NCBI GenBank assembly: GCA_029907465.1
Contig: JARYLV010000007.1
Location: 1 to 64,000 of the forward strand
DNA length: 64,000 bases
Source of the DNA: Methanomassiliicoccales archaeon
GTDB lineage: Archaea > Thermoplasmatota > Thermoplasmata > Methanomassiliicoccales > JACIVX01
Reading direction: 5' to 3'
The notes under the pieces were generated by a model that had not been told where the DNA came from, searched no databases, and was given only the letters and a program-made list of their open reading frames with translations. The stretch's first letter is position 1. The number at the start of each line of letters is the position of its first letter. Positions 4,949 to 53,876 of the stretch are shown here, piece after piece. The translations under genes were made by a program, and so were the position numbers.

Positions 4949-5932
4949 TTAGACATTGAGCTGGCTCGCAGTCCTCCGCCTTGAATCCAATGAGTCCTCT
5001 CTTGGTTCAACCTCCTCGGTCGTTTTCTCGCCTCTCGAAGCGACGTAGATCGCTGCGAAGATCATCGTCGCGCCGATCAATCCTGAAAAATCGAGCGTCT
5101 CGCCGAGTAATAGGCATCCAAGGACCGTCCCGAAGACAGACTCTGAGAGGACGATGGTCGCCGAAGTCGTCGCGCTAATTTTTGTCAGTCCCTTGGCCCA
5201 TAGCAGCGAGGGTATAGAAGTGCAGAGGACGCCAACATAGAGAAGCAATGGTATCGATCCAGGATCGATCGTGAAGTCGTCAACGGTCACTGCCGATAAT
5301 AGGAACAGTGGTATAGGGTAGACGCAGTAGACCCCGAAGACCCACTGATCGTGGCTGAGGTGTCGCATCGCACTCTTCGTCAGAATCCAGATCAGCGCAC
5401 CTGAAGCCGCAGAACCAATGAGCATCGCATCGCCGAGGAACTCGCCCTCGAGGAGTTTAGACAAGTCCCAACCGGTTGTCAGGGATACGAGCCCGACGAT
5501 CCCGACGGTGATGCCAAAAATGCCAGTACGGTTGATCCGCTCACCGAGGAGGAGCGCGGACATCGGAGCTACGAAGACAACGGTGCTGCCGATGATCAGC
5601 GCCCCTTTCGATGCGTTCGTCATCGTCATCCCGATGAATTCGAGGGAGATTGAGACTGCACCGACGACCATCGCTGCCCAGACCTCCCAGCGTCTAAAGA
5701 CTTGGAGGGTAAAGGATCCCCTGATCAATGCGTAGAGGATCGCGATGAGGCCGCCTATCCCGATGACGATAGCCTCGAAGAGGAAGGGGTTGTTCCTCTC
5801 GACGCCGACTTTGATCGCTACGTACGACGTCGCGAACAGCATGCTCGAGAGGAATGTCAGGGCAATAGCACCATTCCTCGTCAACTCCCCTTCTCCTATC
5901 GATGCGGCTTTGAAGACCGGCATCGACACCAC
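4949..5932 (-). CDS. EamA/DMT-family transporter
   Basis: A 327-residue membrane protein with about ten hydrophobic helices arranged as two EamA repeats, roughly residues 20-150 and 165-300. The second repeat contains TTSATIVLSESVFGTVLGCL, typical of the family. The hydrophilic C-terminal tail is rich in Glu, Arg and Ser. DMT proteins export or import small metabolites such as amino acids, nucleosides or sugars; the substrate cannot be told from sequence. The start is uncertain: GTG 5932, GTG 5929 and ATG 5923 are all possible, and no site clearly decides between them. Confidence 0.85.
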   Translation of the reverse strand: MVSMPVFKAASIGEGELTRNGAIALTFLSSMLFATSYVAIKVGVERNNPFLFEAIVIGIGGLIAILYALIRGSFTLQVFRRWEVWAAMVVGAVSISLEFIGMTMTNASKGALIIGSTVVFVAPMSALLLGERINRTGIFGITVGIVGLVSLTTGWDLSKLLEGEFLGDAMLIGSAASGALIWILTKSAMRHLSHDQWVFGVYCVYPIPLFLLSAVTVDDFTIDPGSIPLLLYVGVLCTSIPSLLWAKGLTKISATTSATIVLSESVFGTVLGCLLLGETLDFSGLIGATMIFAAIYVASRGEKTTEEVEPREDSLDSRRRTASQLNV

Positions 5933-6139
5933 CGTGAAGGGGGAATGCCGAGGGGGTTTTTGACATTTTCGATTTTTTTGAAATATTTGCTAATTGAGCT
6001 CCTGGCTCATGCTAACAAATGCCAATAATTCATAGTCGAAACGAGTTTCATCGGGGTGCTCGATCGACCTTTGAGGGAGACATGTTGTGACATCCCCCAT
6101 TATCTTTTGCCCGTTGGTTCCAGGAAATACGATTTTTGG

Positions 6140-6805
6140 TCATTTCTCAGACGAAAAGGCAGAGATGAAACGTTCCCACCTCTTTTTCATTCCTTCTCTG
6201 AGAGAACCAATCTTGAGCGTCGAGGCGATCAACCCTATGAAAATCCCGATGACCGCTCCACCTATGACGTCGAGCGGCCAGTGGACGCCGTAGTAGATCC
6301 TGCCAAAACCGACTGCCATGGCAAAGAGGCCGAGGGGAAGGATCAATTTGGAGTATCTCCTGCCGAGGACTGCAGCGGCTGCGAAGCTCCCCTCAGTGTG
6401 GCCCGAAGGGAACGAAGGGTCCGTGGGCTGGTAAACCGTATGCACATCGTCTAGCACCTCGAAGGGCCTCGGCCTGTCGACGACGTATTTCAAAGTGCCA
6501 CCGACGGCAATATGGATGAGGATCGCGATAAGCAGGTAAAGCGCCATCTCCTTTTTTCCGATAAGCCAGAGGACAAAAATGACGATGAACCAGAAAAAGA
6601 ACGAGCCCATTTCCGCAAAGATCCTGCAGACCGTTTCTAGTGATGGGTTCCAGAGCGCGTTGATCCGCAAGAAGGTCTCGCGGTCCCAAGCGATTGAATT
6701 CTTGTTAAAAATCAGGAGGATGAAGAGTCCGATCATTAAAATGAGTAGGACGGTGAGGAAGCACCTCTCCCTCTCTTTACAAAATTCTCTTATCGTGCAG
6801 TTCAC
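6140..6805 (-). CDS. PAP2-family membrane phosphatase
   Basis: A 221-residue polytopic membrane protein with the full phosphatidic-acid-phosphatase signature: KYVVDRPRPFE, then PSFPSGHTEGS, then GRIYYGVHWPLDV with the active-site His and Asp. Six hydrophobic helices are visible. Such enzymes remove phosphate from lipid phosphates, including polyprenyl diphosphates. Recycling the isoprenoid carrier of surface-glycan synthesis would fit the many glycosyltransferases here, but that is inference. Confidence 0.88.
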   Translation of the reverse strand: MNCTIREFCKERERCFLTVLLILMIGLFILLIFNKNSIAWDRETFLRINALWNPSLETVCRIFAEMGSFFFWFIVIFVLWLIGKKEMALYLLIAILIHIAVGGTLKYVVDRPRPFEVLDDVHTVYQPTDPSFPSGHTEGSFAAAAVLGRRYSKLILPLGLFAMAVGFGRIYYGVHWPLDVIGGAVIGIFIGLIASTLKIGSLREGMKKRWERFISAFSSEK

Positions 6806-34016: not shown

Positions 34017-35852
34017 TCACTCGAAATACCTGAGCAGTGTCGATGGCTGTTGCACTTTCTCAGCGATAGCCACAGTCTCGCTCCCTTCGGGGTAACTGGA
34101 GTCGACGAGCCTCATGAATCCCGACCTGATAACATTGGCCATGCGCTTCCTCCGCTCCTCGAGAAAATCGAAGTAATCCATATCATACCAACCTTCCCAA
34201 AGGGCATGGTAGCTGTACATCTCTTTCAGTTGCTGTTCAGTAAATCTCTTTTCGATTTCTGGGACATATTCCTTCGGTGCTTTGTCGGAAATCGCGATAT
34301 TGTCAGTCCACTCAATCAGTGTGTAGTTTGCAGTTTGATTGATCGAAGGTATATCAACGATGCCGCATTTTTCCAAGTAGTTTCGGGGAAAGAGGTGGTG
34401 GAGCTCGAGGGGAGATTTCGGTCCTCTCACCGATGGATCCAGCAGATCATTGACCTTCATATCAGAGAAGAGGACGGGTGCATTGAGGACGGAGAGAGCG
34501 GCGATGTATGCGAATCTCGCCGGACTTCTCGAAGCACTCGTCGCGAGTTCATTCGGTAGCGTGATACTCCAGAAGTCCTCGGTGAGGACCGCTTCCATTT
34601 CCCGCTTCAAGATCCTCACGAATTCGTCAGGATCACCGGTGTTCCTCAGGTATTTTAGATCCTGTTCAAGACGACTTTCGGGGGAACCAGTATATCTTCC
34701 TGTGAGAAGTGACATGAATGTCCAGGCAGCGATAATCCTCCGGAGCGTTTTTATCTCTAGACCAAAATCCCTCTTTCCGATGAGCCAGAGGGCATAGGCG
34801 TAGAAGAGCGTGTTGGGGGAAGAGATGTAACTGCCGCTCCTGAACCCGGCGTGGACAGGCGTCTTCAGAAACTCATGCCAGTTTAGAAGATCCAGTGTAT
34901 ATTTCTGCGCCTCTTTGAGCAAATTAAGGTTTTTAATTCTTTCTTCTTCAGAGTACTCCCTCGTCTGCAGATTTCTGCCTCTCAAAAGAGAATAGACCGT
35001 GTCTAGTCTCCCCCGTCTGAAGCCCAACGCGATGACTGCGCGGAGGAGCTGGTCTGGAGTCGGATTGATGAAGCGGTTGAAGGGAGTCGCTGAAGTCTTT
35101 CCGGGATGCCTGGCATCCTCACAGAACTTTTCCAGTTCGTCCCTCCCTTCGCTCCAGTAAACGGACATAAGGGTGAGTATGAAATCTGATTGGTTGAGGG
35201 TCACACCTGCGCTGTTTATTCGTACAAAGATCTCAGACATCTCTTCGTCCGGTATGCTCGATGCCAGTTCGAGACACGTAAGAGGATAATTGATCAAGTT
35301 GTACAGCCGGTTTATCGCCCTGTATACCTTCTCTTCGATTTCGTTGTTTATCTCTCTCTTTTCCTTGAGCCGGGTGAGATATTCTTTCACGAAGGCGTAC
35401 TCCCCAGATGAACCTGACCAAATCCTGCTTATGTCAGGTATCCAGTCCGGGTTCTTCATGATTGCACTGTCTGTCACATCGAACTTTTCTTCCAGCGGGT
35501 TGAAGGCGATATTGATTTTTCGGGAATCGTAATTCTTCCAGATGATGTTCTTCCCTTTAATGACGGCATAAAGCGAAGTCAAACGCTGCTGTCCATCAAT
35601 AATTAACAACCGTGGATACTTCTGCTTCCCTTCTACACCGATTTGCCTAGAAAATTCATCCGTCGCATTTTCCCAGAACAGGAAATATCCGATAGGGTAT
35701 CCTCTATACATCGAGTCAAACAAATCCCTGACCTTTGTGTTCTTCCAGATAAATGGCCTCTGAATATCGGGTAGGGCGATCTCGCCCATCTCGATATCGT
35801 TCACTATCTTAATTACAGTATAATCCACCTTCCTGAAGCATACTTGATCCAT
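34017..35852 (-). CDS. GmrSD-type DUF262/DUF1524 (HNH) protein
   Basis: A 611-residue protein. The N-terminal DUF262 (ParB/Srx-like NTPase) domain shows DIQRPFIWKNTKVRDLFDSM and LLIIDGQQRLTSLYAVIKG. The C-terminal region, about residues 490-560, contains ELHHLFPRNYLEKCG and NQTANYTLIEWTDN, the His-His-x-Phe-Pro and Asn residues of a DUF1524 HNH nuclease. This single-chain arrangement is that of GmrSD, a type IV restriction enzyme that cuts DNA with modified (glucosylated) cytosine. Antiviral defence is the likely role. No methylase is nearby, in keeping with type IV systems. Confidence 0.85.
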   Translation of the reverse strand: MDQVCFRKVDYTVIKIVNDIEMGEIALPDIQRPFIWKNTKVRDLFDSMYRGYPIGYFLFWENATDEFSRQIGVEGKQKYPRLLIIDGQQRLTSLYAVIKGKNIIWKNYDSRKINIAFNPLEEKFDVTDSAIMKNPDWIPDISRIWSGSSGEYAFVKEYLTRLKEKREINNEIEEKVYRAINRLYNLINYPLTCLELASSIPDEEMSEIFVRINSAGVTLNQSDFILTLMSVYWSEGRDELEKFCEDARHPGKTSATPFNRFINPTPDQLLRAVIALGFRRGRLDTVYSLLRGRNLQTREYSEEERIKNLNLLKEAQKYTLDLLNWHEFLKTPVHAGFRSGSYISSPNTLFYAYALWLIGKRDFGLEIKTLRRIIAAWTFMSLLTGRYTGSPESRLEQDLKYLRNTGDPDEFVRILKREMEAVLTEDFWSITLPNELATSASRSPARFAYIAALSVLNAPVLFSDMKVNDLLDPSVRGPKSPLELHHLFPRNYLEKCGIVDIPSINQTANYTLIEWTDNIAISDKAPKEYVPEIEKRFTEQQLKEMYSYHALWEGWYDMDYFDFLEERRKRMANVIRSGFMRLVDSSYPEGSETVAIAEKVQQPSTLLRYFE

Positions 35853-39634: not shown

Positions 39635-40288
39635 ATGCTGGATGTTACCAGCAGTGCTGATAAATGGATGGAGATTCTTCGTCCCTATCTGCGGGATTTC
39701 CGTCGAGAGAGAATATCCTTTGATCCAAAGAAATCCGCCCTCATGGTCATCGACATGCAGCGTTTTTTCCTCGACCCCCGGTCCCATGCATACCTCCCCA
39801 CTGCAAGTCAGATCATCAAGAATGTTCGAGAATTACTGCACGCTTACCGGGAATCCTCGCTTCCAGTCATTTTCACAAGACATGCCCTCCTGCAAAACGA
39901 AGACCCAGGGGTGATGGGCAGGTGGTGGCGCGATGTTATTCGCGAGGAAGACGCGATGTCTTCGATCGTTGAGGAATTGAAGCCATTACCCGATGAAATA
40001 GTGATCAGGAAGACGCGGTACAGCGCGTTCGCAGATACAGACCTCAAACAGATATTGAGAAATCTCGGGGTTACACAATTGGTCGTCACAGGTGTAATGA
40101 CACACCTCTGCTGTGAGACAACGGCCCGCGAGGCCTTCGTCCGCGATTTCGATGTCTTCTTCGTCATCGACGCGACGGCGACGAAAAATGAAGACCTCCA
40201 TCTCTCGAGTTTGAAGACTTTGGCTGATGGGTTCGCCATTCCTGTCAAGAGTGAGGAGGTGGTCGCTTGGATAAAGCAAAGGAAGTGA
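39635..40288 (+). CDS. Isochorismatase-fold cysteine hydrolase
   Basis: About 217 residues; ATG 39635 or TTG 39632 both follow a GGGGGAG site. The catalytic triad is complete: Asp in ALMVIDMQRFFLDP, Lys in VIRKTRYSAF, and Cys in GVMTHLCCETTAREAF. Members hydrolyse nicotinamide, isochorismate, ureidoacrylate or similar compounds; the substrate here is not fixed by motif. It is the first gene of a three-gene operon: its end overlaps the flavoprotein gene by 22 bases. Confidence 0.88.
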   Translation: MLDVTSSADKWMEILRPYLRDFRRERISFDPKKSALMVIDMQRFFLDPRSHAYLPTASQIIKNVRELLHAYRESSLPVIFTRHALLQNEDPGVMGRWWRDVIREEDAMSSIVEELKPLPDEIVIRKTRYSAFADTDLKQILRNLGVTQLVVTGVMTHLCCETTAREAFVRDFDVFFVIDATATKNEDLHLSSLKTLADGFAIPVKSEEVVAWIKQRK

Positions 40289-41175
40289 CTGTCATTGGGG
40301 CGGGACCAGCTGGTATCGCAGCGGCGATATATCTGAAAAGAGCGGGTCATGATCCTTTGCTATTGGACAAAAAAGGTCCTGGGGGTCTGATCGTCAACGC
40401 GAATCTCATCGAGAACTATCCAGGTTTCCCCGGAGGTATTGATGGTCCTTCACTCAGAAATCGTTTTGTCGAACAGATGCAGTCCCTTGGCGTCTCCGTC
40501 ACTCGAGCACATGTAAAGAGAATCAGCCGCGTCCATAAGATCTTCCGCGTCGAGACGGACAACGGAGATTACGATTCCCTTGTCATCATTGTCGCCACAG
40601 GCACGCGCCCTAAGAGAATAAGAATGAAGGGTGCGAAGGCGCTCGAGGGAAAGAAGGTCTTCTACGACCTGGAAGGGGTGCTCGCGAATAATATCGTTGA
40701 TGGAAGGATCATCGTCGTTGGCGGCGGGGACATCGCATTCGATTACGCGATTAACTTGCGAGAACGTGGGTGGAAGGTGAAGATCGTGTCACGGTCGACG
40801 CCGCGGTGCCTACCGCTCCTCTGGAAGCGAGCGGAAGAAAAAGGGATTGATGTGTTGGTCGGATATTCACCTGTTGAAGTCCTTGACAAAGATGATTCGC
40901 TCGTTCTCCTTTGCAATTCTCATGGGGAATCGAAGGAGGTCGAGGGGGACAGACTTTTGATCGCCTGTGGCAGAGTGCCCAATCTCGAGGTACTCGATTC
41001 AAGGCTGCGGAGAAATCTTTGGAGAAGGGGGTTGCCAGAAACCGGGGTTCCAGGTCTTTATCTCGTCGGGGACGTCGCGCGGAAGCGGTATCGCCAAGCT
41101 GGCATTGCGGTCGGCGATGGTATACTGGCAGCCATGATGGCCGATTCATATCTGAAAAAAGGGGGAAGAAGATGA
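40267..41175 (+). CDS. Thioredoxin-reductase-like flavoprotein lacking the CxxC
   Basis: 302 residues from TTG 40267, which follows a GGAGG site by 6 bases. The FAD motif is VTVIGAGPAGIAAAIYLKRA. The nucleotide motif is IIVVGGGDIAFDYAI, and the C-terminal FAD contact is GVPGLYLVGDVARK. In true thioredoxin reductases a CxxC pair precedes the second Rossmann motif; here that place reads FYDLEGVLANNIV, with no cysteine at all. So it cannot act as a disulfide reductase, and is more like a ferredoxin or flavin-linked NAD(P)H oxidoreductase that feeds the next gene. Its stop overlaps the radical SAM start (ATGA). Confidence 0.85.
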   Translation: MDKAKEVTVIGAGPAGIAAAIYLKRAGHDPLLLDKKGPGGLIVNANLIENYPGFPGGIDGPSLRNRFVEQMQSLGVSVTRAHVKRISRVHKIFRVETDNGDYDSLVIIVATGTRPKRIRMKGAKALEGKKVFYDLEGVLANNIVDGRIIVVGGGDIAFDYAINLRERGWKVKIVSRSTPRCLPLLWKRAEEKGIDVLVGYSPVEVLDKDDSLVLLCNSHGESKEVEGDRLLIACGRVPNLEVLDSRLRRNLWRRGLPETGVPGLYLVGDVARKRYRQAGIAVGDGILAAMMADSYLKKGGRR

Positions 41176-42170
41176 GGGTCCTTGCTGAATACGGGAATGA
41201 GGAGATCGCGAAGGTTTATGTCGTCCAATTAAGGGAAGACGAGGCAGGTAACGGGAAATCCCGGAAGTACGTCGTTGAGTGTGTCGAGTCCGTCCAGCCC
41301 CCGATCCCGAGGGAGAAAAAATGGGTTCTCATCGTTTCGACGATGTTCGGCTGTCCGATCAAATGCAAATTCTGCGACGCTGGTGGCGATTATCTCGGGA
41401 AACTGACAGCGGAGGAGATCCTCGCGCAGATCGCCTACATAGTGCGCCGCAGATTCCCGGACAATTATGTGCCTATCCCCAAATTCAAGATCCAGTTCGC
41501 AAGGATGGGGGAACCGTCGCTGAACCCCGCGGTCCTCGAGGCGATGCGTCGTCTTCCAGAGATTTTAGACGCCCCTGGACTGAATGTTTCTCTCTCAACG
41601 ATCGCACCAAAGACCAATACCGCGGAAAAGTTCTTTGAGGAGCTCATTGAAATCAAAGAGCAATACTACTCGCGAGGAAGATTCCAGTTGCAGTTCTCGA
41701 TACACACGACTGATGTTGATAAAAGAAATGAACTGATCCCGATCAAGAAGTGGTCATTCGAAGAGATCGCCGCCTACGGCGATCGTTTCAGTTCACCAGA
41801 AAGCGGGGATAAAAAGGTGACCTTGAACTTTGCACCAGCAGTTGGGTATCCCCTTGATGCAAAGGTCATCCGCAAACACTTCGACCCCTCGAAATTCATT
41901 ATCAAGATTACCCCACTGAACCCGACGGTGCGATCGCACGAGCAGTCGCTTCAGTCGTTGATCGACCCGTATGACTCAAAGAGTTCGCAGCGAGTTGTCG
42001 AGATGTTTGAAAAAGAAGGGTTCGAGGTTATCCTCAGCATCGGGGAACTGGAGGAAAACAAGATCGGGAGCAACTGCGGTCAGTATGTCCAGAGGGCGAT
42101 CCATTCTCGTGCGAAACCGGAGAGCAGCTATGACCTCGAGAAATACGGTGTGAGAATTTTTCCGTCATGA
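41172..42170 (+). CDS. RlmN/Cfr-like radical SAM protein
   Basis: A 332-residue protein starting at ATG 41172 after a GGGGGAAG site. The radical SAM cluster motif is FGCPIKCKFCDAGG (C-x3-C-x2-C). The next motifs are QFARMGEPSLNP and VSLSTIAP. Near the end SNCGQYV provides a lone Cys like the methyl-carrying Cys of RlmN. This matches the RlmN/Cfr family, which methylates adenine in rRNA or tRNA, although several archaeal members have unknown targets. The upstream NAD(P)H flavoprotein would be a plausible electron donor for its reduced cluster. Confidence 0.85.
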   Translation: MRVLAEYGNEEIAKVYVVQLREDEAGNGKSRKYVVECVESVQPPIPREKKWVLIVSTMFGCPIKCKFCDAGGDYLGKLTAEEILAQIAYIVRRRFPDNYVPIPKFKIQFARMGEPSLNPAVLEAMRRLPEILDAPGLNVSLSTIAPKTNTAEKFFEELIEIKEQYYSRGRFQLQFSIHTTDVDKRNELIPIKKWSFEEIAAYGDRFSSPESGDKKVTLNFAPAVGYPLDAKVIRKHFDPSKFIIKITPLNPTVRSHEQSLQSLIDPYDSKSSQRVVEMFEKEGFEVILSIGELEENKIGSNCGQYVQRAIHSRAKPESSYDLEKYGVRIFPS

Positions 42171-42568
42171 GGATTCTTCAGACGATAATTTTATGTGCGT
42201 GTTACTGTTGAAAAACGATTTGGACGGTTGAATTCTCTTTGACCTCGCTTCTCATTTAATCAAAATTGACATCTTTTTTTATTTTTTTCCCTGCCATAAA
42301 ATTTTGGCCTAGGACGGGATAAATCATTCTATCAATATTTTCAAGAAATCACATCCATTGAAAAATTTCAAACAATCTCATTTGCGCTCCTTCCGAATAT
42401 TACCGACAATACGTATTGTTACGCGAGACCGGTTTCGATCGTGTTGGTAGATTCCCATTCGAACCTTTTCATTCACAAGTCGATCAACGAATCAAGAATG
42501 ACAAAATCGACAAGTTCTCATATTACCAACACTCTGTTTTCATATCGAATAAAACGGGAGGTCGTTAC
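42171..42568. other. Intergenic region with oligo-T terminator
   Basis: About 400 bases. A T-rich stretch at 42274-42288 probably ends the radical SAM operon. An in-frame extension of the tautomerase to 42416 is not supported. Nothing else is recognised. Confidence 0.4.
42274..42288 (+). terminator. Oligo-T terminator after the radical SAM operon
   Basis: The run tttttttattttttt lies about 100 bases after the stop. It is the kind of T-tract that ends archaeal transcripts. Confidence 0.45.
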
Positions 42569-42772
42569 GTGCCGATTGTTAACGTCTACGTGTGGAAAGG
42601 GTTCTCTGATGGGGCGAAGCGGAAGGTAATATCCGGTGTCACGGAGGTCTTCGTAAACCTTGGGATCCCCGCGCAGGCGGTCGAGGTCGTGATCCAAGAG
42701 GTCCCGATGGAGAACTGGGGAGTTGGCGGGGAACAAGCGAGTGAGAAATTCAAGCAGACAAGAATACCGTGA
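42569..42772 (+). CDS. 4-oxalocrotonate tautomerase-like protein
   Basis: A 67-residue protein. GTG 42569 is chosen because GGGAGG (42556-42561) sits 7 bases upstream and because the next codon is Pro. Tautomerases need Pro at position 2 after Met removal as the catalytic base, so VPIVNVYVWKGF fits exactly. The rest (KVISGVTEVFVNLGI, VVIQEVPMENWG) is the family beta-alpha-beta unit. Members interconvert enol and keto acids; the substrate is unknown. It seems to be a lone gene. Confidence 0.85.
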   Translation: MPIVNVYVWKGFSDGAKRKVISGVTEVFVNLGIPAQAVEVVIQEVPMENWGVGGEQASEKFKQTRIP

Positions 42773-43249: not shown

Positions 43250-44029
43250 CTAATCAGTCGGCGAGACCAGGATCACATTATATGACTGAGTCCTCTCGTT
43301 ATACACGATGTCGACATCGACGTGGAAGACCTCCCTGATTTTTTCCGGCGTCAGGACATCTTGCACCTGTCCAGCCGAATGTACTTTCCCAGCACTGAGA
43401 AGGAGGAGTCGGTCGCAGTATCGGGCGGCTAAATTGAGGTCGTGCGAGACGAGAATCGTTATCAAGTCCTTTTCCTTCGTAATTCTTTTGACCATTTCCA
43501 GCACTTCGAGCTGGTGGTTGACGTCCAAATGGAGAGTCGGTTCATCGAGTAAAAGGACTTCGGGTTCCTGTGCGAGTGCCCTTGCGATGATCACCCTCTG
43601 CAGCTCCCCGCCACTCAATTCGTCAATCGCCCTCTCACACAGGTGCAGGGTGCCCGTCATCTCCATCGCATTCGTGACAATCTCAAAGTCACGCGGGCTC
43701 TCGCCGCTCAACGCGTCGATGTGTGGAAACCTCCCCATCAGAACGACGTCGAACACCGTGAAGGGGAAGGTGGTGAAGCGCTGCGGGACGACGCCGATCT
43801 TCTTTGCGATCTCCGCCCGCTGGAGTTGGGATAAATCGGTACCATCGATCAGGACCGTCCCCGCCTTCGGCTTCAGCGTCTGGTTGATGCACCTGAGCAG
43901 CGTCGTCTTTCCAGACCCGTTAGGACCAATGACGCCGAGGATTTCCCCCTCCCTCGCATCAAAGCTCACATCCTCCAGGGCCTTGATGCTTTCGTAGGAG
44001 AAGCTGATGTTCTTGATGTTGAGGAGCAA
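43250..44029 (-). CDS. ABC transporter ATPase, FecE/BtuD type
   Basis: A 259-residue ATPase. TTG 44029 gives LLLNIKNISFSYESIKAL; no earlier start in frame is better. Walker A is GPNGSGKTTLL, the signature is LSGGELQRV, and Walker B is EVLLLDEPTLHLDV with the H-loop in LVSHDL. This belongs to the iron-siderophore/cobalamin/hemin family. It powers the permease encoded just upstream (six bases apart). The operon order is binding protein, radical SAM, permease, ATPase. Confidence 0.92.
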   Translation of the reverse strand: MLLNIKNISFSYESIKALEDVSFDAREGEILGVIGPNGSGKTTLLRCINQTLKPKAGTVLIDGTDLSQLQRAEIAKKIGVVPQRFTTFPFTVFDVVLMGRFPHIDALSGESPRDFEIVTNAMEMTGTLHLCERAIDELSGGELQRVIIARALAQEPEVLLLDEPTLHLDVNHQLEVLEMVKRITKEKDLITILVSHDLNLAARYCDRLLLLSAGKVHSAGQVQDVLTPEKIREVFHVDVDIVYNERTQSYNVILVSPTD

Positions 44030-44035
44030 AGCAGA

Positions 44036-45091
44036 TCACCATCCCATGATTCTTTTCCTCTTGCGCAGGAGGTAAAGGAAAAAGGGGACACCGAGGAGCG
44101 CTGTGATCACGCCGACTGGTAACTCCGTCGGCTCAATGATCGTACGCGCGAGCGTGTCGACCCAGATGAGGAAAATCGCGCCGACGATGCAGGAAGACGG
44201 CGTAAGAATGCGGTGATCTGGTCCGACGACGATCCTCATCATGTGCGGTATGATAAGGCCTACGAAACCGATGATCCCGCAGACGGATACCGCAGCTGCG
44301 GTGACGAGGGAGACGAGGACGAGGATTATCTTTTTGAAGGTCTCCACTTCGAGTCCCAAGTTCGTCGCTGTCTCCTCTCCCATCAGGATTAGGTTCAAAT
44401 GCCTGTTGAAGAGGGAGATCGCGATGATGCCGAAGACGATCAGGGGAGCTGCGATGGCGAACTTGTCCCAGTCGCTTGTCCAGAACCCCCCCATTAGCCA
44501 GAAAACGATCGTGCTCAGTTTTTCGCCCGCAACATACTGCATGAAGGAGACGAGAGCTGAAAAGAGTGAGCCGACTGCGATTCCCGTCAGCAACAGAGTC
44601 TCCAAAGGAGTCCTCCCGTTGACTTTGGCGATTTCGTAGACGAGGAAGATGGTTATGAGGGCGAATATGAACGCCATCAACGGGATCGAATAGATGCTCG
44701 CCATGACTGTGAACCCGCCGACGATCGCGAGTGATGCGCCGAAGGCCGCACCCGACGAGATACCGAGGATGTAGGGGCTCGCCATCGGGTTTCTGAACAG
44801 GGCCTGCATCGCGGCCCCCGCAACCGAAAGCGCGGCCCCGACGAGTCCGCTGATGAGGACCCTCGGCAATCGTACATCGAGGACGATCACGTTGTAAATC
44901 GGTGGCCACGGCTCAGAAGAATGCGTTGCGCCGAAGAGGATTTTTATGACGGTCAGCGGCGCTATCTTGACGGGCCCGATGCAGATCGATGAGATAATCG
45001 TCAGGAAGAGCGCCACGGATAATCCGAGGAGTATCAGCGCTCGTCGGAGTCTTCTCCGGGCGTACAAATCATCGATACCAGGTCCTTTCAC
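44036..45091 (-). CDS. ABC transporter permease, FecCD/BtuC family
   Basis: A 351-residue permease with about ten helices, starting at GTG 45091 directly after the TAG stop of the radical SAM gene. Family motifs include RLPRVLISGLVGAALSVAGA, FRNPMASPYILGISSGAAFG and GFVGLIIPHMMRI, which contacts the ATPase. A homodimer would form the pore. Substrates of this family are corrinoids, hemin, siderophores and molybdate; the sequence does not decide between them. All four genes are on one strand with almost no spacing. Confidence 0.92.
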   Translation of the reverse strand: MKGPGIDDLYARRRLRRALILLGLSVALFLTIISSICIGPVKIAPLTVIKILFGATHSSEPWPPIYNVIVLDVRLPRVLISGLVGAALSVAGAAMQALFRNPMASPYILGISSGAAFGASLAIVGGFTVMASIYSIPLMAFIFALITIFLVYEIAKVNGRTPLETLLLTGIAVGSLFSALVSFMQYVAGEKLSTIVFWLMGGFWTSDWDKFAIAAPLIVFGIIAISLFNRHLNLILMGEETATNLGLEVETFKKIILVLVSLVTAAAVSVCGIIGFVGLIIPHMMRIVVGPDHRILTPSSCIVGAIFLIWVDTLARTIIEPTELPVGVITALLGVPFFLYLLRKRKRIMGW

Positions 45092-45805
45092 CTAGGCCAC
45101 CACTGCACTCTTGAAGCGCGGATCGACGGCCCTCAAATTCCGTAACATTTCAGGGGTCAGACAGGAAAAGGTCACATTCGATAAATATTTGCTGGCGAGG
45201 CGGGCAGCGTGCTCAACTTCTTCAGGTCTTGTGCCCCTCCATGGGGCATTTGGCACTGGGACATAGCCTACGATGTGATACGGAATCGTTTGATCGATGC
45301 CTGCGATGAATTTCGCTATTCTCTCTATCTCGTCGCAGTCAATGTACTGGGGAATAAGAACGCTGCTTGCTTCCAGTTTAATTCCCCTCTTGTACATTCT
45401 TTCGAAGTTCTTTAGCACCTCGTCGTTTGGAACGCCTGTGTATTCAACATGGATCTTGTTCGAGTGCGCCTTGATGCTCACAGAGACCGCGTCTATGTTT
45501 GCTGGCGGCATCATGGAACCGTTTGAATGGCCGATCTTCGTATATGCGTGGAGTTCTTCGTGACAGAACCGTGCTGTCTCTGGGAGATCGGGATTTGTCG
45601 TCGGCTCGCCTCCGAGGAAGTGAACTCTCTCTGGGCCGAGCTTCAGCAATATCTCTTTTATTTCCTCCACGCCAATAAACCGATTGGTTTGTCTGCGTGT
45701 TCCAATGACGCCATACGCGCAGCCTGCGCAGCGGAAATTGCAGCCCCAGTTATAGAGGTTCGCTCTCTTGAACTCCTGGGAGTATGTGACCATGTAAATG
45801 GTCAT
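45092..45805 (-). CDS. Radical SAM protein embedded in an ABC transporter operon
   Basis: A 237-residue protein. The cluster motif is NWGCNFRCAGCAYGV (C-x3-C-x2-C), followed by VHFLGGEPTTNPDLP (GGEP), GHSNGSM and AVSVSIKAHSN. This matches the small PflA-like radical SAM group that activates or modifies other molecules. GAGG lies about 7 bases before ATG 45805, so it is properly translated. The start overlaps nothing, lying 14 bases after the binding-protein gene, and its stop abuts the permease start. No SPASM or partner domain is seen. A role in modifying or releasing the imported chelate is plausible but unproven. Confidence 0.85.
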   Translation of the reverse strand: MTIYMVTYSQEFKRANLYNWGCNFRCAGCAYGVIGTRRQTNRFIGVEEIKEILLKLGPERVHFLGGEPTTNPDLPETARFCHEELHAYTKIGHSNGSMMPPANIDAVSVSIKAHSNKIHVEYTGVPNDEVLKNFERMYKRGIKLEASSVLIPQYIDCDEIERIAKFIAGIDQTIPYHIVGYVPVPNAPWRGTRPEEVEHAARLASKYLSNVTFSCLTPEMLRNLRAVDPRFKSAVVA

Positions 45806-45819
45806 GACGTGATCCTCTG

Positions 45820-46761
45820 TTATCCGAAGAGCTCAGGGTGGAACCATTGTGCGAACTGTTCGAGCCCCAGCACAAGTCGAGGGCTCGCTGTGACCCATCC
45901 GCTCTCGATCGCATAAACACGGTCATCTTTCACAGCATCGATGTTCTGCCAACCCTCCCTGTTCTTGATCTCATCGACGGAGGCACCATAGCTCACCACC
46001 ACGATGACATCGGGGTTTTTCTCGATGATGTACTCATTGCTGAGTATTGGGTATCTGACCGACTCGTTGGCAGCGATGTTGATGCCTCCCGCCATCGAGA
46101 TCAGTTCATTGGTAAACGTACCAGGGCCGACTGTCTTGAGAGCGGTGCCCAGCTCATAGTATACCAGAGGTTTTTCTTCATTAATAAGATTCAAGACCTT
46201 TTCTGCGATGGCGTCGATCCTCATCTCCATCTCCGAGATCACCGCGTCCGCCTCCACGGATTTCCCGACGAGCGCTCCGACCGTCTTTATAAGGTTGTAA
46301 ACATCCGAAACATTCTGAGGGTTAACCGTGACGACTGGAATTCCCAGGTCTCCGATCCTCTTGTTCACGTCCGTGTTATACCACCATGCGAATACGATGT
46401 CTGGATGGAGACTGACGATGAGTTCCATATTCGGGTTTGAAGCTTTTCCGACGTTCGTCTTATTGAAAATATCGACCGGATAGTCTTCGAGCTGGCCTGG
46501 AGCCCCCTCAAATGTCTCATTACCCGAAAGGGCATAATCGACGCTCGATTGATCGACCCCCACGAGCTTGTCACCAGCGCCAATTGCGTAGATGATCTCG
46601 GTACAGGCCGCAGAAAGTGAAACGATTCGTTCGACAGAAGTCCCCTCTTGCCCAGTTTCAGGGGTCAAAACCTTTGCAAAAAGGTATCCACCACCGAATG
46701 AACCTATAATCACCGCGACGATGATCACCGCATAAACGATTTTTGCATTGCTTTTGTTCAT
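45820..46761 (-). CDS. Membrane-tethered substrate-binding protein, TroA/BtuF type
   Basis: About 313 residues from ATG 46761, after a GGTGGCG site. A hydrophobic N-terminal helix (IVYAVIIVAVIIGSFGGGYL) anchors it outside the membrane. The class III binding fold follows: RIVSLSAACTEIIYAIGAGD, VSLHPDIVFAWWYNTDVN and NPDVIVVVSYGAS. The family binds corrinoids, hemin or ferric chelates. It is the first gene of the ABC operon. Confidence 0.9.
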   Translation of the reverse strand: MNKSNAKIVYAVIIVAVIIGSFGGGYLFAKVLTPETGQEGTSVERIVSLSAACTEIIYAIGAGDKLVGVDQSSVDYALSGNETFEGAPGQLEDYPVDIFNKTNVGKASNPNMELIVSLHPDIVFAWWYNTDVNKRIGDLGIPVVTVNPQNVSDVYNLIKTVGALVGKSVEADAVISEMEMRIDAIAEKVLNLINEEKPLVYYELGTALKTVGPGTFTNELISMAGGINIAANESVRYPILSNEYIIEKNPDVIVVVSYGASVDEIKNREGWQNIDAVKDDRVYAIESGWVTASPRLVLGLEQFAQWFHPELFG

Positions 46762-47667
46762 ATATCGCCACCTATGGGACAATTCGGTGTTAACCCTGCC
46801 GGCATTGGAATGTTTTTTGTGGCTTGAATAACACCTTTTTGCGAATAGTAATACCCTTCAATAAATCTTTTTGTCGAACGCACGCCTTTGCTCCTGGTTG
46901 TTGAGTTCCGAGTGAATTTTCGAATGAAAGCTATCAATACAAGATAGAATTGTACGACGTCCATATCAACCGTTTCTGTAATAATATGCTGAGACTTTCT
47001 TGGGTATGTCAACATTAATGAGAGATTGTAATTTGGTTGTCATTTGACGCTGTTGCCTAAAGATTTATAAGAGGTGAGTGCCTTATCCGTAACACGAAAT
47101 CTCAAAAAGTAATAAGAAAATCATATAAGGTTATCGGATTTCGCCGTAGCGCAAGGATTTGCTTTGAAGTCTGCCGATGAATATCCTCATATCGACTAAT
47201 GGTCACGATGAATTGCGCATTGGGCCATCGTGGCTCCGATCCGGCACGGAACCTTCGCTCCCTCCTGTCCCCTTTGCCCTCGGGATTCGGAGTCCCTGGC
47301 CCTTCACATCTAATTTCTCGAGTACTGCTTCTGATCCTCTCCTAGGCAAGAATGATTGTTTTCCGATTCATTATCATGTTCCGATTGAATCAATTTTCCT
47401 TTTATGATTCGCATTACTTTCTGATTTCAGACTGTGGACTCTACTTTCTGCGTACTGCGGTGTTTCAAGTCCTTCAATTCTTCTGTGGCGCCGGAAATTG
47501 AGATACGATATGAAACAATATGAAAATATGGCTCCCAGTGGAAGTCCGTGAGGACTGACGAAAGGGGAGTTGCGTCCCCCTCCCTGAAATGTGGAAATAT
47601 CCTGTTATCGATATCCTACGCGATTGAAAGATACGCGATAACGAAGGTACTCGCAAGGTCGATCTGT
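46762..47667. other. 906-base noncoding region with possible structured RNA
   Basis: A clear BoxA (agatttataag, 47062-47072) is followed by a foldable stretch at 47133-47178. Frames at 47177-47407 and others have shadow-like composition. This is the longest gene-free stretch in the window. Confidence 0.4.
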
Positions 47668-49039: not shown

Positions 49040-50467
49040 TTATCGTGAATTTCTGTCGATGAGTCTGCCATCGGCATCGTATAACTCGAAGTCGATGCCC
49101 CTACTGCCAAACGAGTGTGAAGCGCAGCTGAGGCAGGGATCGTAAGCGCGGATGACGGCCTCGACGCGGTTGAGCATCCCCTCGGTCAGCTTCTTCGCGT
49201 TAACATATTTTTTTGCGACTTCCGTCACAGCCCTGTTGAAGGCCACATTGTTGTGCCCTGTTGCAATGATGAGGTTAACCCATGTAATGAGACCGTTCTC
49301 GTCGACTTTATAGTGGTGGATAAGAGTGCCTCGAGGTGCCTCAGCCACTCCGATTCCTTCTGAACGGCTAACCTCAGCCTTCGCCCACACTCGATCTGCA
49401 TATGTCTCTGGTTCACTGAGAATCTCTTCGGCCCTTTCGAGGCAAAAGAGGATCTCAATGAGGCGCGCGTAATGGTATAGGAAAGAACTCTCCACGATCC
49501 CATTCTTTCCGAACTTCCTGAATTCTTTGATCTCTTCGTCAGCGAGTGGCGTGCCGCACCGCTTCGCGATGTTGAGCCTTGCGAGCGGGCCGACCCGGTA
49601 GCTTCCGCCAGGGTAGCCCAGCGGCTTGTAATAAGGGAATTTCATATACGACCACGGCTCAACCGCCTCCGCGATGAATTCCTTGTATTTCGTTGGATCG
49701 AGGGAATCGGCGATCACTTCTCCTTGGTAATCAATGATCTTCAATAGCCCGTCGTAATGTTCGAGTTCGCCATCTGGTGTGATAAGTCCCATGTAATTCG
49801 AGGGGAAGTTGCCAAGATGCTCGATTTCCTCGTCAAAACGCTGAAGCATATTCCTAAATTTCTCTAGCGTAGAAATCGTGATGTTCTTTGCCTCTGGCAG
49901 ATCGGCAGCGATCCTTTCCCCTTTTTCTTTCGTCAGCGGCCACCTGACGCCACCTGGCACGATCCAATCGCTTGAATGAATCCTTTTCCCTGCAAGTCTC
50001 TCAATGATCTCCTGGCCAAACTTCCGTAACTTGATCCCGTTCTTTGCGATTTCTGGATCGCTCTCGATAAGCCCGAAAATATTCCTCTTTTCAATATCTG
50101 CATCCATGCCAAAGAGGAGATCTGGAAAAGAAAGGTAGAAGAAGCTGAGCGTGTGCGATTGGATAATCTGGCCCATGTGCATGAGTCGCCGGAGTCTTAC
50201 CGCTGCTTCAGGGATCGTTACAGAAACGAGGGCATCGCACGCCTTCGCCGACGCGATCAAATGGCTAACAGGACAAATACCGCATGCCCTCGAGGTGATG
50301 CTCGGCATCTCGTAATATGGACGACCTTCGCAGAACTTTTCGAACCCACGGAAGAAATTGATCTGGAATCTTGCATCTTTCACAGACCCATCATCATCGA
50401 GAAAGATCGTCACTTTGGCATGTCCTTCAATTCTCGTCACGGGGTTGATCGTAATTTCTTTTACCAT
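49040..50467 (-). CDS. hoxH: [NiFe] hydrogenase large subunit, HoxH-like
   Basis: 475 residues; ATG 50467 follows a GGAGGG site. The Ni-Fe centre is coordinated by the four cysteines of SRACGICPVSH (residues about 60-70) and DPCLSCASH near the C-terminus. A 24-residue tail after that His would be removed by a maturation protease. The N-terminal INPVTRIEGHAKV is typical. The short L2 motif and the neighbouring diaphorase genes place it in group 3d-like NAD-reducing hydrogenases. It oxidises H2 or evolves it in the cytoplasm. No maturation protease (HoxW-like) is in the window. Confidence 0.92.
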   Translation of the reverse strand: MVKEITINPVTRIEGHAKVTIFLDDDGSVKDARFQINFFRGFEKFCEGRPYYEMPSITSRACGICPVSHLIASAKACDALVSVTIPEAAVRLRRLMHMGQIIQSHTLSFFYLSFPDLLFGMDADIEKRNIFGLIESDPEIAKNGIKLRKFGQEIIERLAGKRIHSSDWIVPGGVRWPLTKEKGERIAADLPEAKNITISTLEKFRNMLQRFDEEIEHLGNFPSNYMGLITPDGELEHYDGLLKIIDYQGEVIADSLDPTKYKEFIAEAVEPWSYMKFPYYKPLGYPGGSYRVGPLARLNIAKRCGTPLADEEIKEFRKFGKNGIVESSFLYHYARLIEILFCLERAEEILSEPETYADRVWAKAEVSRSEGIGVAEAPRGTLIHHYKVDENGLITWVNLIIATGHNNVAFNRAVTEVAKKYVNAKKLTEGMLNRVEAVIRAYDPCLSCASHSFGSRGIDFELYDADGRLIDRNSR

Positions 50468-50478
50468 GGGAGACCCTC

Positions 50479-51012
50479 CTATCCAAACTTCGCCTTCCCC
50501 TCCATCTCCGGTTTTCGCCCGGCGAGGAGTTCCGTTAAGACATAAGTGATGAGAGACGCCGGCGGAGGACAGCCTGGTATGAAGTGGTCGACTTCCACAA
50601 TCTCATGAAGGGGATGCGCTTTTTTCAACAAGGGCGTGACCTCTGAAGGGATCTGTGGTGTGGTATCAGCGAGTTCTAAATATGCTCTCTTCAGCACCGC
50701 CTGGTCCCCCTCTCTCAAAGCGTTCCTCAGCGATGTGACATTACCATGGACGGCGCAGTCGCCGAGGGCGATCAGCTGTTTTGTCCTCTTCCTCGCGACT
50801 TCAATCAACTCGAGTTGCTCCTCGTTCCCAACCGCCCCCTCGACGATCGTGATATCCACATTTTCCGGAAATTCTTTCACGTCGATGAGCGGGGAATAGA
50901 CGAATTGCACGAGCTTCGCCAACTCCATCAAAAATTCGTCCTGGTCGAGGAATGACATGTGACAGCCTGAACAACCGCTGAGCCAAATGGTCGCTACCCT
51001 GACTTTATTCAA
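50479..51012 (-). CDS. hoxY: [NiFe] hydrogenase small subunit, HoxY-like
   Basis: 177 residues from TTG 51012. It carries WLSGCSGCHMS, LIALGDCAVHGN and FIPGCPPP, the four cysteines that bind the proximal [4Fe-4S] cluster. It lacks the C-terminal extra cluster domain found in periplasmic or F420-linked enzymes, as in HoxY. It sits between the Ni-Fe subunit and HoxU and passes electrons from one to the other. Its start overlaps the end of hoxU by 8 bases. Confidence 0.92.
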   Translation of the reverse strand: MNKVRVATIWLSGCSGCHMSFLDQDEFLMELAKLVQFVYSPLIDVKEFPENVDITIVEGAVGNEEQLELIEVARKRTKQLIALGDCAVHGNVTSLRNALREGDQAVLKRAYLELADTTPQIPSEVTPLLKKAHPLHEIVEVDHFIPGCPPPASLITYVLTELLAGRKPEMEGKAKFG

Positions 51013-51712
51013 ACGCCGATCGCCTCCTCTCGGTGATAAATTTCGCCACTTCTTTGTCCTTCGTGGAGGAGAGCGCCTCTCCCTTCACATAGATCGCCCC
51101 GACTGGACAGACCTTCGCGCATTTCCTACAGCCCGTACAGGAGGTGGCATTTTTCCAGTTCTCGTTGAGGTCTATCACGACTTGTGTCTCCTTACCGCGG
51201 AGCATGAGGTCGAGCGTGTGGACACCTTCGATTTCATCACAAACCCGAATGCAGCGGGTGCAGAGGATGCACCTGTTCCGATCGATGACGAGATATGCGT
51301 GTGTGAGATCGACACTGAGTTCAGGCCAGTCGCGCTCGAAAATGAGCTGGTCGACGCCCAGTTCGCTTGCCAGTGATTGGAGTTCGCAGGCACCATTCGC
51401 CACACAGACTGAGCATATATGTGCCCTTTCGGAGAGTAAGAGCTGGAGGGCCATTTTCCTGTACTCCTTCAGCCGGTCAGAATTCGTTGTGACCTCCATG
51501 CCCTGGCCGACTGGTGTCGTACAGGCTGGAAAGACTTTTGGTGACCCCTTGATCTCAACGAGGCAAAGGCGACATCCGCCGTAGTCCTTCACCCCCTCCA
51601 AATGGCAGAGAGTGGGGATTTTGATCCCGTTCGCCATGGCAGCGTCGAGGATCGTCGTACCATCTGGAACCTCGACCGCCCTGCCATCAATAGTCAATCT
51701 GACTGATTTCAT
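51005..51712 (-). CDS. hoxU: Diaphorase iron-sulfur subunit, HoxU-like
   Basis: 235 residues with three cluster regions: a plant-type [2Fe-2S] domain (TLCHLEGVKDYGGCRLC and ACTTP), a NuoG-type His/Cys motif (RAHICSVCVANGACELQ), and two [4Fe-4S] ferredoxin motifs (RCILCTRCIRVCDE and SCTGCRKCAKVCP). It is the wire between the flavin subunit and the hydrogenase. It starts at ATG 51712, inside the ATGA overlap with hoxF. Confidence 0.92.
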   Translation of the reverse strand: MKSVRLTIDGRAVEVPDGTTILDAAMANGIKIPTLCHLEGVKDYGGCRLCLVEIKGSPKVFPACTTPVGQGMEVTTNSDRLKEYRKMALQLLLSERAHICSVCVANGACELQSLASELGVDQLIFERDWPELSVDLTHAYLVIDRNRCILCTRCIRVCDEIEGVHTLDLMLRGKETQVVIDLNENWKNATSCTGCRKCAKVCPVGAIYVKGEALSSTKDKEVAKFITERRRSAFE

Positions 51713-53352
51713 GACCCCTCCGCACCCATATCACATCTCCCCGTCGGACACTTTTTGTCGAGGATATGCGCCATGTACTCTTCCTTAAAATAGCGGATCG
51801 TCGTGAGAACGGGATTCGGGGCTGTCTGGCCGAGGCCGCAGAGGCTCGCCTCTTTGATGTATTCGCCAACCTTTGCGAGGAGATCGATGTCCTTTTCGAC
51901 CCCTTTCGCATGTCCGATCCTTTCGAGGATTTTCCTCACTTTGACGAGCCCGACACGGCAGGGCGTACACTTGCCACAGGATTCGTCGACGCAGAAGTCG
52001 ATGAAGAATTTCGCCGTGTCGACCATACAGGATTCATCATCGAGCACGACGATGCCGCCAGACCCCATGATCGCGCCCGCTTTCGTCAGCGACTCGTAAT
52101 CGATAGGGAGGTGGAGCTGCGATTCTGGCAGACAACCACCGGAAGGGCCTCCGACAAGAACCGCTTTGAATCTTCTTCCATCTGGTACGCCACCTCCAAT
52201 CTCAAACACCACCTCCTTGAGCGTGATCCCCATCGGGACCTCGATGAGGCCGGGGTTCTTAATTTTGCCAGTGAGCGAGAAACATTTCGTCCCAGGGCAA
52301 TGTGGTACTCCGATCTTCGAAAACCATTCCCCTCCGTTGAGCACGATGAGAGGAATATTTGCGAGTGTCTCGACATTCTGAATCAATGTCGGTTTTCCCC
52401 AAAGGCCAGATGACGCGGGGTAAGGCGGGCGGGGACGGGGCATAGCTCTCATCCCCTCGATGGAAGCGAGGATCGCCGTTTCCTCCCCCGCGATAAAGGC
52501 GCCCGCTCCCAGGCGCAGCTCAAGATCAAAATTCAAATCCGTTCCGAGTATTTTCTCGCCAAGTAGACCAAGTGATTTGGCCTGTTGTATCGCCTTCTTG
52601 AGCGTCTCGATAGCGAGCGGGTATTCAGCCCTCGTATACAAATATCCCTTTTCGGCCTTGAGCGCGTAAGACGCGATGATCATCCCCTCTATAATCGCGT
52701 GAGGATCCGCTTCAGCAAGCGTCCTATTGGCGAATACGCCTGGGTCGCCCTCATCTAGATTCCCTATGATGTACTTCGGAGAACCGGCCGCCTTCGATAC
52801 GAATTTCCATTTCTGTCCTGTCTGGAAGCCAGCACCACCGCGCCCCCTCAATCCGCTCTTGAAGACCTCGTTGATGACGTCGTCTTCACTCATTTTTGTG
52901 AGACATTTGACGAGTGCGGCGTAACCTCCACGCGATATGTATTCACGGATATCAAGGGGGTCCATTTTGCCAGCGTTCCTCAGTACGAGCCTTTTTTGTT
53001 TTGAGAAGAATTCCGGAACGCTGTAGAGGAATCGTTTCAGGGGTATGCCCCGGATCACATGCTCCTCAACGATCTCCCGCGCGCTTTCCGGTGTAACACC
53101 CTCGTAAAAATAATCGCCAGGCTCGATGAGGACCACTGGACCAGCCGAACATGTTCCTGGGCATCCCGTTCTCGCGACTTTGCACTGGTCTTCCAGACCA
53201 AGTTCCTTAACCGCTCTCTCGAATGATTTAAGGACTTTCAAAGCGCCGAGCGAGATGCAGCTGCTCGAGCAGCAGACGTTGATTCTATACCTGAACCTTT
53301 TCTGTTTTTCCCGTTCTTCTTCTGCGATCTTCTCAATGTCTTCGACCTTCAG
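51709..53352 (-). CDS. hoxF: Diaphorase flavin subunit, HoxF-like, with CTG start
   Basis: About 547 residues if started at CTG (complement of 53350-53352). The frame upstream of TTG 53241 encodes RINVCCSSSCISLGA, the first half of a thioredoxin-like [2Fe-2S] domain whose second half, TGCPGTCSAGP, lies after it. This upstream part contains no ATG, GTG or TTG. GGGGGAG stands four bases before CTG, which overlaps the hoxE stop as CTGA. NADH and FMN motifs are GRGGAGFQTGQKW and IIGNLDEGDPGVFANR; the [4Fe-4S] cysteines are in ESCGKCTPCRVGL and ASLCGLGQ. It oxidises NADH or reduces NAD+. Confidence 0.9.
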   Translation of the reverse strand: MKVEDIEKIAEEEREKQKRFRYRINVCCSSSCISLGALKVLKSFERAVKELGLEDQCKVARTGCPGTCSAGPVVLIEPGDYFYEGVTPESAREIVEEHVIRGIPLKRFLYSVPEFFSKQKRLVLRNAGKMDPLDIREYISRGGYAALVKCLTKMSEDDVINEVFKSGLRGRGGAGFQTGQKWKFVSKAAGSPKYIIGNLDEGDPGVFANRTLAEADPHAIIEGMIIASYALKAEKGYLYTRAEYPLAIETLKKAIQQAKSLGLLGEKILGTDLNFDLELRLGAGAFIAGEETAILASIEGMRAMPRPRPPYPASSGLWGKPTLIQNVETLANIPLIVLNGGEWFSKIGVPHCPGTKCFSLTGKIKNPGLIEVPMGITLKEVVFEIGGGVPDGRRFKAVLVGGPSGGCLPESQLHLPIDYESLTKAGAIMGSGGIVVLDDESCMVDTAKFFIDFCVDESCGKCTPCRVGLVKVRKILERIGHAKGVEKDIDLLAKVGEYIKEASLCGLGQTAPNPVLTTIRYFKEEYMAHILDKKCPTGRCDMGAEGS

Positions 53353-53876
53353 TTTTCTCCCCCAGCGAATTTCTTAATTCTTTCCAGAACGCCTTCTTTT
53401 GTCGCTTTGCCGATGACCTCATCGTCGACTATTACATTCGGCGCCATTGCGCACGCACCGATGCAACGCGTGATGAATAGAGTAACTCTTCCGTCTGGAG
53501 TGGACTTTCCCCTCTCGACCCCAAGCTCGCGCTCGATTGCCACGAGAATCTCACCTGCACCCTTGACATAGCATGCTGTCCCCATGCACGGCGTGATGAT
53601 GTGTTCCCCAGGCTTCCTCAGCCTGAAAAAATTGTAAAATGTCGCAGCGCCATAGACCTGGCTAGGAGCGACGTGTAGTCTCTCAGCAATGAGGATCAAG
53701 ATCTTCCTGTCGAGGTACCCAAAGATCTCCTGTGCCTTCTGGAGCACTTCGAGCAAAGCGCTCCGATCGTAATCATGTTCTTCCATTAGCTTCTCGAGCT
53801 TTGCCACCAATTTTTCTCTGATCAAGATATCGCTACCAGTGTGAGTACTCTCTACTGTTTTTTCATTACCTGTCAA
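53349..53876 (-). CDS. hoxE: Diaphorase [2Fe-2S] subunit, HoxE-like
   Basis: 175 residues from TTG 53876, after an AGGGTG site. A thioredoxin-like [2Fe-2S] fold is shown by TPCMGTACYVKGA (C-x4-C) and RCIGACAMAPNV (C-x3-C). Such NuoE/HoxE subunits accept electrons in Hox hydrogenases and may bifurcate with a ferredoxin. It is followed by hoxF with a four-base overlap. Confidence 0.92.
   Translation of the reverse strand: MTGNEKTVESTHTGSDILIREKLVAKLEKLMEEHDYDRSALLEVLQKAQEIFGYLDRKILILIAERLHVAPSQVYGAATFYNFFRLRKPGEHIITPCMGTACYVKGAGEILVAIERELGVERGKSTPDGRVTLFITRCIGACAMAPNVIVDDEVIGKATKEGVLERIKKFAGGEN

Follow-up and report, generated by a model that had tools for sequence, protein, structure and literature searches.

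A widespread gene set joining an RlmN-like radical S-adenosylmethionine protein, a CxxC-less flavoprotein and a cysteine hydrolase in anaerobic archaea and bacteria

The DNA studied here, a stretch of 64,000 nucleotides from a Methanomassiliicoccales archaeon (positions 1 to 64,000 of contig JARYLV010000007.1, assembly GCA_029907465.1; hereafter the window), carries three overlapping genes that encode an isochorismatase-fold cysteine hydrolase (A), a flavoprotein with the thioredoxin-reductase fold but without its CxxC motif (B), and an RlmN-like radical S-adenosylmethionine (SAM) protein (C) (Table 1). The open reading frames and the overlaps of 22 and 4 bases reported in a first-pass annotation, made from the letters and their translations, are confirmed; an alternative in-frame TTG for A lies at 39632. 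The A/B overlap has the same length in all six members of the order that were compared (the window, L014, L015, L017, L018, and L020; L, G, and f numbers denote loci, genomes, and families), and the triplet is real. All three proteins have clear Pfam assignments, and all score well under the equivalog cut-offs of named enzymes. The module is genuine, widespread, made of known folds, and apparently undescribed, as no published description of the triplet was found in literature searched for the gene combination.

Of the 61 genomes from the order Methanomassiliicoccales, 8 carry C (nine passed E 1e-3, the ninth, G040, being a short, weak match that was not counted), and A and B adjoin C in the same gene order in all seven C-positive genomes other than the window's, with exceptions in completeness (C of G021 is cut by a contig end, and the called B of L016 is shorter N-terminally). 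Class-wide, C occurs in 71 of 400 Thermoplasmata genomes. A scan of named genomes yielded 397 C-encoding stretches, and the best 80 of these, which were analysed, extend its range beyond the order to Thermoplasmata, one Heimdallarchaeota record, and many bacterial groups, including Acetothermia, Chloroflexi, Eisenbacteria, Krumholzibacteria, Aminicenantes, Thermotogota, Latescibacterota, Cloacimonadota, Zixibacteria, and Planctomycetes, among others. Gene arrangement was counted at 78 C loci with sufficient flank, setting aside 23 of 101 loci with flanks too short and dropping L028, L032, and L037 (same genomes as L015, L016, and L018) and L140, L149, L150, and L169 (identical C): 66 read A-B-C, 3 read C-A-B, 7 read B-C, and 2 hold C alone, i.e., A and B both accompany C at 69 loci and B does so at 76. 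The triplet that the first-pass annotation proposed to seek in other archaea is therefore found there, and its expectation of a conserved gene order stands for the set, though not for the order itself, which is permuted to C-A-B in one lineage (family f11). In that family, a creatininase-like gene (named by eye) follows C-A-B (L135 8215-8970 and L138 9429-10184).

The same association is seen at the level of whole genomes. B proteins of the C-associated clade (at least 225 bits against the B profile) were found in 38 of 40 C-positive Thermoplasmata genomes, two of these matches being partial, vs 0 of 40 C-negative ones, where the best score was 213.5; the panels were hand-picked from 71 C-positive and 329 C-negative genomes, are mostly the more complete ones, and include 20 C-negative genomes of the window's own order. 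Further, the distance matrices of A, B, and C correlated with each other (r 0.71, 0.71, and 0.80 over 59 common loci), which none of 2000 permutations reached. Because of this locus linkage, the co-occurrence of B, and the correlation of distance matrices, we conclude that the A-B-C set travels and evolves jointly, with B and C the tightest pair.

The sequence relatives of C in the PDB are RlmN and Cfr, with which it shares the radical SAM fold, the CxxxCxxC cluster motif, and the C-terminal CGQ cysteine. The cysteines C61, C65, C68, and C302 are invariant in 90 alignment rows (rows with partial genes were omitted from the alignments of all three proteins and from the cysteine-position counts), a C-terminal CG motif occurs in 90/90 C proteins, and C302 aligns with the ACGQ of Cfr, the methyl carrier of RlmN being C355. 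The predicted model (predicted local distance difference test, pLDDT, 90.9) matches RlmN 5hr6 at Z 26.3 (root-mean-square deviation, rmsd, 2.9 over 271 residues), where, as for B below, best matches are listed and families outside the list may also match. Its residues 1-311 superpose on RlmN chain 80-364, i.e., RlmN minus its first 79 residues, and the N-terminal helical domain of RlmN is correspondingly missing (50-67 residues precede the first cluster cysteine in C vs 110-149 in RlmN). Missing too is any counterpart of the resolving cysteine (RlmN C118, Cfr C105), as position -7 holds a cysteine in 18/18 RlmN controls but in 0/90 C proteins, all 90 of which have I, L, M, V, T, or N there. 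The resolving cysteine of RlmN and Cfr is described as essential for freeing the RNA from its covalent adduct with the enzyme (PMC9692996). Scores against the RlmN equivalog TIGR00048 (45.8 bits, cut-off 290) and the Cfr models TIGR04432 (34.1 vs 550) and NF000424 (38.9 vs 530) are far too low for either name. A 110-row tree places C and RlmN on two sides of one branch with 100/100 support; the inner branches measure 4.9 and 5.1 changes per column, and the bootstrap is not fully settled. Among 201 sampled Chloroflexota, true C (E <1e-100) appeared in 4, and the following matches, mostly RlmN-like, began at 5e-24. Unlike RlmN and Cfr, C forms a separate clade and has a near-obligate flavoprotein and a usual hydrolase partner. 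C is thus not RlmN and fails a defining feature of class A methylases, though its reaction may follow theirs as far as the methyl-cysteine; another base might then replace the resolving cysteine, the substrate might need none, or the product might leave by hydrolysis.

Given the missing resolving cysteine and N-terminal helical domain, C probably acts on a small molecule and not on RNA, which lends indirect support to the preference of the first-pass annotation for a small-molecule pathway over rRNA methylation. The alternative is that C methylates an rRNA or tRNA adenosine through a new mode of RNA recognition, with B reducing C and A incidental. The nearest structures listed for C are indeed RlmN (Z 24.7-26.3) and Cfr (19.4), and C has a higher mean column identity (55%) than A (41%) or B (33%), as is common for enzymes with universal substrates. 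However, beyond its two missing features, C is patchily distributed across Thermoplasmata, shares Chloroflexota genomes such as G424, G431, and G457 with a second match that resembles RlmN, and is accompanied by A at 69 of 78 loci, and we regard an RNA target as distinctly unlikely.

The sequence relatives of B in the PDB are thioredoxin reductases, and its predicted model (pLDDT 95.8) matches 5mh4 at Z 34.0 (rmsd 2.3 over 294 residues). Low-molecular-weight TrxB shares with B the whole-length fold and both dinucleotide-binding motifs, for flavin adenine dinucleotide (FAD) and reduced nicotinamide adenine dinucleotide (phosphate) (NAD(P)H), but bears a redox-active CxxC in its NADPH domain that is absent from all 88 B proteins. 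A conserved F-Y-E/D occupies the site instead (F in 62, Y in 62, and E or D in 71 of the 88), and the score against TIGR01292 is 183 bits (cut-off 343). The two Rossmann motifs and the absent CxxC were both seen correctly in the first-pass annotation, the absence extends to the homologues, and the view that B cannot be a thioredoxin reductase holds as an inference. TrxR-like ferredoxin/flavodoxin-NADP reductases (FNR2, YumC type) combine the TrxR fold with a lack of CxxC and would offer a functional analogy, but the B model fits one of them (8c16, Z 26.3) less well than a true TrxR, and B of this clade, unlike that type, is seen only with C. Since the window's genome holds two more B relatives, L003 with CASC and L002 without CxxC, a CxxC-less thioredoxin-reductase fold is in itself ordinary; the strict tie of B to C is not.

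The idea that B may feed electrons to the cluster of C, already raised in the first-pass annotation, gains weight because B is the near-obligate partner of C (76/78 loci; 38/40 vs 0/40 genomes). B might otherwise catalyse a third step of the pathway, oxidising or reducing a heterocyclic substrate while ferredoxin reduces C, and the conserved F-Y-E/D could then be a substrate site. B is tied to C even without A (7 B-C loci), which is redox-partner-like but equally pathway-enzyme-like; we consider such a catalytic role for B unlikely, if worth keeping in view.

A belongs to the isochorismatase-like superfamily by its fold and its catalytic D, K, and C, with D40, K126, and C159 invariant in 65 rows. 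Its closest solved relatives by sequence, isochorismatases and cysteine hydrolases, are 2fq1 (EntB) and 3irv, and the fold and D-K-C triad are common to the isochorismatase-family cysteine hydrolases (3irv, RutB, and biuret hydrolase). At the position of C159, 3irv retains the cysteine but EntB has a glycine, and A therefore looks like a Cys-nucleophile amidohydrolase and not an isochorismatase sensu stricto. It is far under the equivalog cut-offs for BiuH (79 vs 370 bits) and RutB (76 vs 378 bits).

The surroundings of C hint at a metabolic setting that the first-pass annotation, otherwise partly supported, did not include, namely one-carbon metabolism. Neighbour names were assigned partly by eye, with Pfam run for ten neighbours. 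Clusters of carbon monoxide dehydrogenase/acetyl-CoA synthase (CODH/ACS), MetF/V, AcsE, and CooC genes surround C in Chloroflexi and Thermoplasmata. In Anaerolineales, A-B-C stands between DUF3786 and two CooC-like ATPases, adjoining CODH/ACS, AcsE, and MetF/MetV-like genes, and in Thermoplasmata family f23 its neighbours comprise FolC, a PurN-like formyltransferase, a RACo-like activator, CooC, and CdhD/E. Other neighbours of C include MttB with a corrinoid protein (L070, L089, L097, L023, L024, and L027), FolP (L066, L075, and L080), FolP with FolC, PurN, and PurH (L041), CooC (L068 and L092), threonine aldolase (L056, L061, L073, and L081), an imidazolonepropionase-like gene (L131, L132, and L137), and PurE/PurC/PurD-like genes (L143). 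The DUF3786 protein is directly or closely upstream of A at L065, L074, L083, and L098 (Anaerolineales Wood-Ljungdahl clusters), and in a Thermosipho-like genome (L081), where the threonine aldolase follows C, an additional radical SAM gene (5765-6664) abuts A; lipoyl synthase was entertained as a tentative identity for it, with Pfam as the check.

Strong CdhD matches (E <1e-30, hand-counted from listings) were present in 29/71 C-positive vs 48/329 C-negative Thermoplasmata, in all 8 C-positive sampled genomes of the window's own order, and in 24 of 50 C-positive genomes outside the class (a subset of the best 80 loci made up of L079 and those from bacteria), including 13/13 C-positive Chloroflexi loci; among sampled Chloroflexota, CdhD occurred in 35/201 and in 3 of the 4 with C. 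One could therefore suppose that the module matures or repairs a Wood-Ljungdahl enzyme (CODH/ACS or the corrinoid protein) instead of modifying a small molecule. The CdhD counts in the own order and in Chloroflexi favour this, as does the placement of the set, which in Chloroflexi, Thermoplasmata, and Acetothermia is embedded in or adjacent to genes for CODH/ACS or CooC, with C adjoining CooC in a Syntrophaceae genome as well. However, CooS exceeded its cut-off in just 10 of the 52 C-positive genomes without strong CdhD, and the Aciduliprofundum-like family f18 has A, B, and C but neither CdhD nor CooS, and we judge this explanation improbable. Maturation of CODH or CODH/ACS as a general role is rejected, since 42 of those 52 genomes also lack CooS; the local context is kept.

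RlmN yields 2-methyladenosine, and corrinoids are known to carry 2-methyladenine as a ligand, so by analogy the set might make 2-methyladenine as a cobamide lower ligand (factor A). This would suit RlmN chemistry, the corrinoid-dependent neighbours MttB and CODH/ACS, and the FecCD/BtuF-type importer near the triplet in the window. CobS, which is required for attaching a lower ligand, is nevertheless found in only 8/40 C-positive vs 24/40 C-negative genomes and is missing from the window's genome, a distribution that largely refutes lower-ligand synthesis and leaves it very improbable indeed.

From the observed gene set, its linkage and co-occurrence, the predicted folds, and the catalytic residues present or absent, we lean, tentatively, towards a conserved anaerobic module in which B is the dedicated NAD(P)H reductase of C and the set modifies a small molecule of one-carbon metabolism. 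In this scheme, NAD(P)H would reduce the FAD of B, which would most likely pass electrons to the [4Fe-4S] cluster of C or to the oxidised end of its cycle. By homology, C would bind [4Fe-4S] and SAM, cleave SAM, and load C302 with a SAM-derived methyl, then add the carbon onto a small-molecule substrate of the sp2 type and release the product otherwise than RlmN does, there being no resolving cysteine. A, as a cysteine amidohydrolase, may open or trim an amide of the substrate or product, and the target most likely lies within tetrahydrofolate-dependent one-carbon metabolism.

Several points weigh against this preferred interpretation. A is missing beside C at 9 of 78 loci and B at 2, clade-level B was not found in 2 of 40 C-positive genomes (G090 and G236; in G236 a fragment does adjoin C), and the alignment rows are mutually related, so that their counts are not independent events. 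Reduction of C by B, while most likely, is deduced from linkage. A one-carbon gene (21 queries) was matched in 36/105 C loci (near-duplicates L140, L149, and L150 retained) vs 2/18 RlmN control loci, an enrichment that is partly circular, as queries were drawn from C loci, many loci are short, and controls are Chloroflexota only; the remaining 69/105 C loci matched none of the 21. Strong CdhD is missing in 42/71 C-positive Thermoplasmata, and one C-positive sampled Chloroflexota genome (G522) has no CdhD. Finally, FolD (74/80) and DHPS (79/80) are near-universal in the panel genomes with and without C, and co-occurrence therefore does not single out folate. The one-carbon context is thus suggestive, partly circular, and missing at most loci. 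The same FolD and DHPS counts led us to reject A-B-C as the filler of a missing folate-synthesis step, since it replaces neither enzyme and adds something.

The favoured scheme has a more specific form, in which C, as an RlmN relative with one cysteine and a novel type of radical SAM one-carbon chemistry, would move SAM-derived carbon via C302 onto a pterin or folate, B would be the reductase, and A the amidase. We consider it a long shot, as we do its possible product, a C-methylated tetrahydrofolate or a methylene on its nitrogen (the latter would need no resolving base). MJ0619, a radical SAM enzyme once considered a pterin C-methylase, as C is here, is likened to C by description and not by sequence. 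A methylase of the methanopterin type is a further, speculative idea for C.

Other genes in the window lie outside the triplet (Table 1). The FecCD/BtuF-type ATP-binding cassette importer has a radical SAM gene between its permease and binding-protein genes, and a FecCD-like gene is also near the triplet in L014, L016, L017, and L018. An NAD-linked (Hox-like) hydrogenase operon combines the large and the small NiFe hydrogenase subunit with NuoE/F/G-like subunits, a tautomerase-family open reading frame has ~50 additional N-terminal residues and may truly start downstream, and a GmrSD-type restriction endonuclease N-domain protein is also encoded.

Table 1 Features of the A-B-C triplet and other genes in the window
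Feature	Position	Strand	Remarks
Gene A, isochorismatase-fold cysteine hydrolase	39635..40288	+	217 aa; ATG start; Isochorismatase (PF00857) 6e-47
Gene A triad codons D40, K126, C159	39752-39754, 40010-40012, 40109-40111	+	
A/B overlap	40267..40288	+	22 bp
Gene B, CxxC-less thioredoxin-reductase-fold FAD/NAD(P)H flavoprotein	40267..41175	+	302 aa; TTG start inside A; Pyr_redox_2 (PF07992) 1.3e-36
B/C overlap	41172..41175	+	4 bp, ATGA; direct sequence reading
Gene C, RlmN-like radical SAM protein	41172..42170	+	332 aa; ATG start; Radical_SAM (PF04055) 7e-8, above its cut-off; Ile54 at the position of the RlmN resolving Cys
Gene C cluster codons C61, C65, C68	41352-41354, 41364-41366, 41373-41375	+	
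Gene C C-terminal C302 codon	42075-42077	+	aligned with the methyl-carrier cysteine
GmrSD-type restriction endonuclease N-domain protein	34017-35852	-	
Tautomerase-family open reading frame	42416-42772	+	TTG start
FecCD/BtuF-type importer	43250-46782	-	
Radical SAM gene within importer	45092-45805	-	
NAD-linked (Hox-like) NiFe hydrogenase operon	49040-53876	-	

The formerly proposed pterin methylase MJ0619 has been reassigned as the tetraether lipid synthase (PMC9433317), which reopens the identity of pterin C-methylases, and C is one candidate family for this chemistry outside methanogens. If the pterin or folate form of our favoured scheme were true, the module would represent an unrecognised modified one-carbon carrier, or a SAM-to-folate carbon route, in anaerobic archaea and bacteria. 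Should C function in the absence of the resolving cysteine on which RlmN and Cfr depend, the picture of class A radical methylation would change, and purified C might retain its substrate as a covalent adduct, making that substrate directly findable. The module occurs in many candidate phyla, often in or beside their carbon-fixing Wood-Ljungdahl genes.

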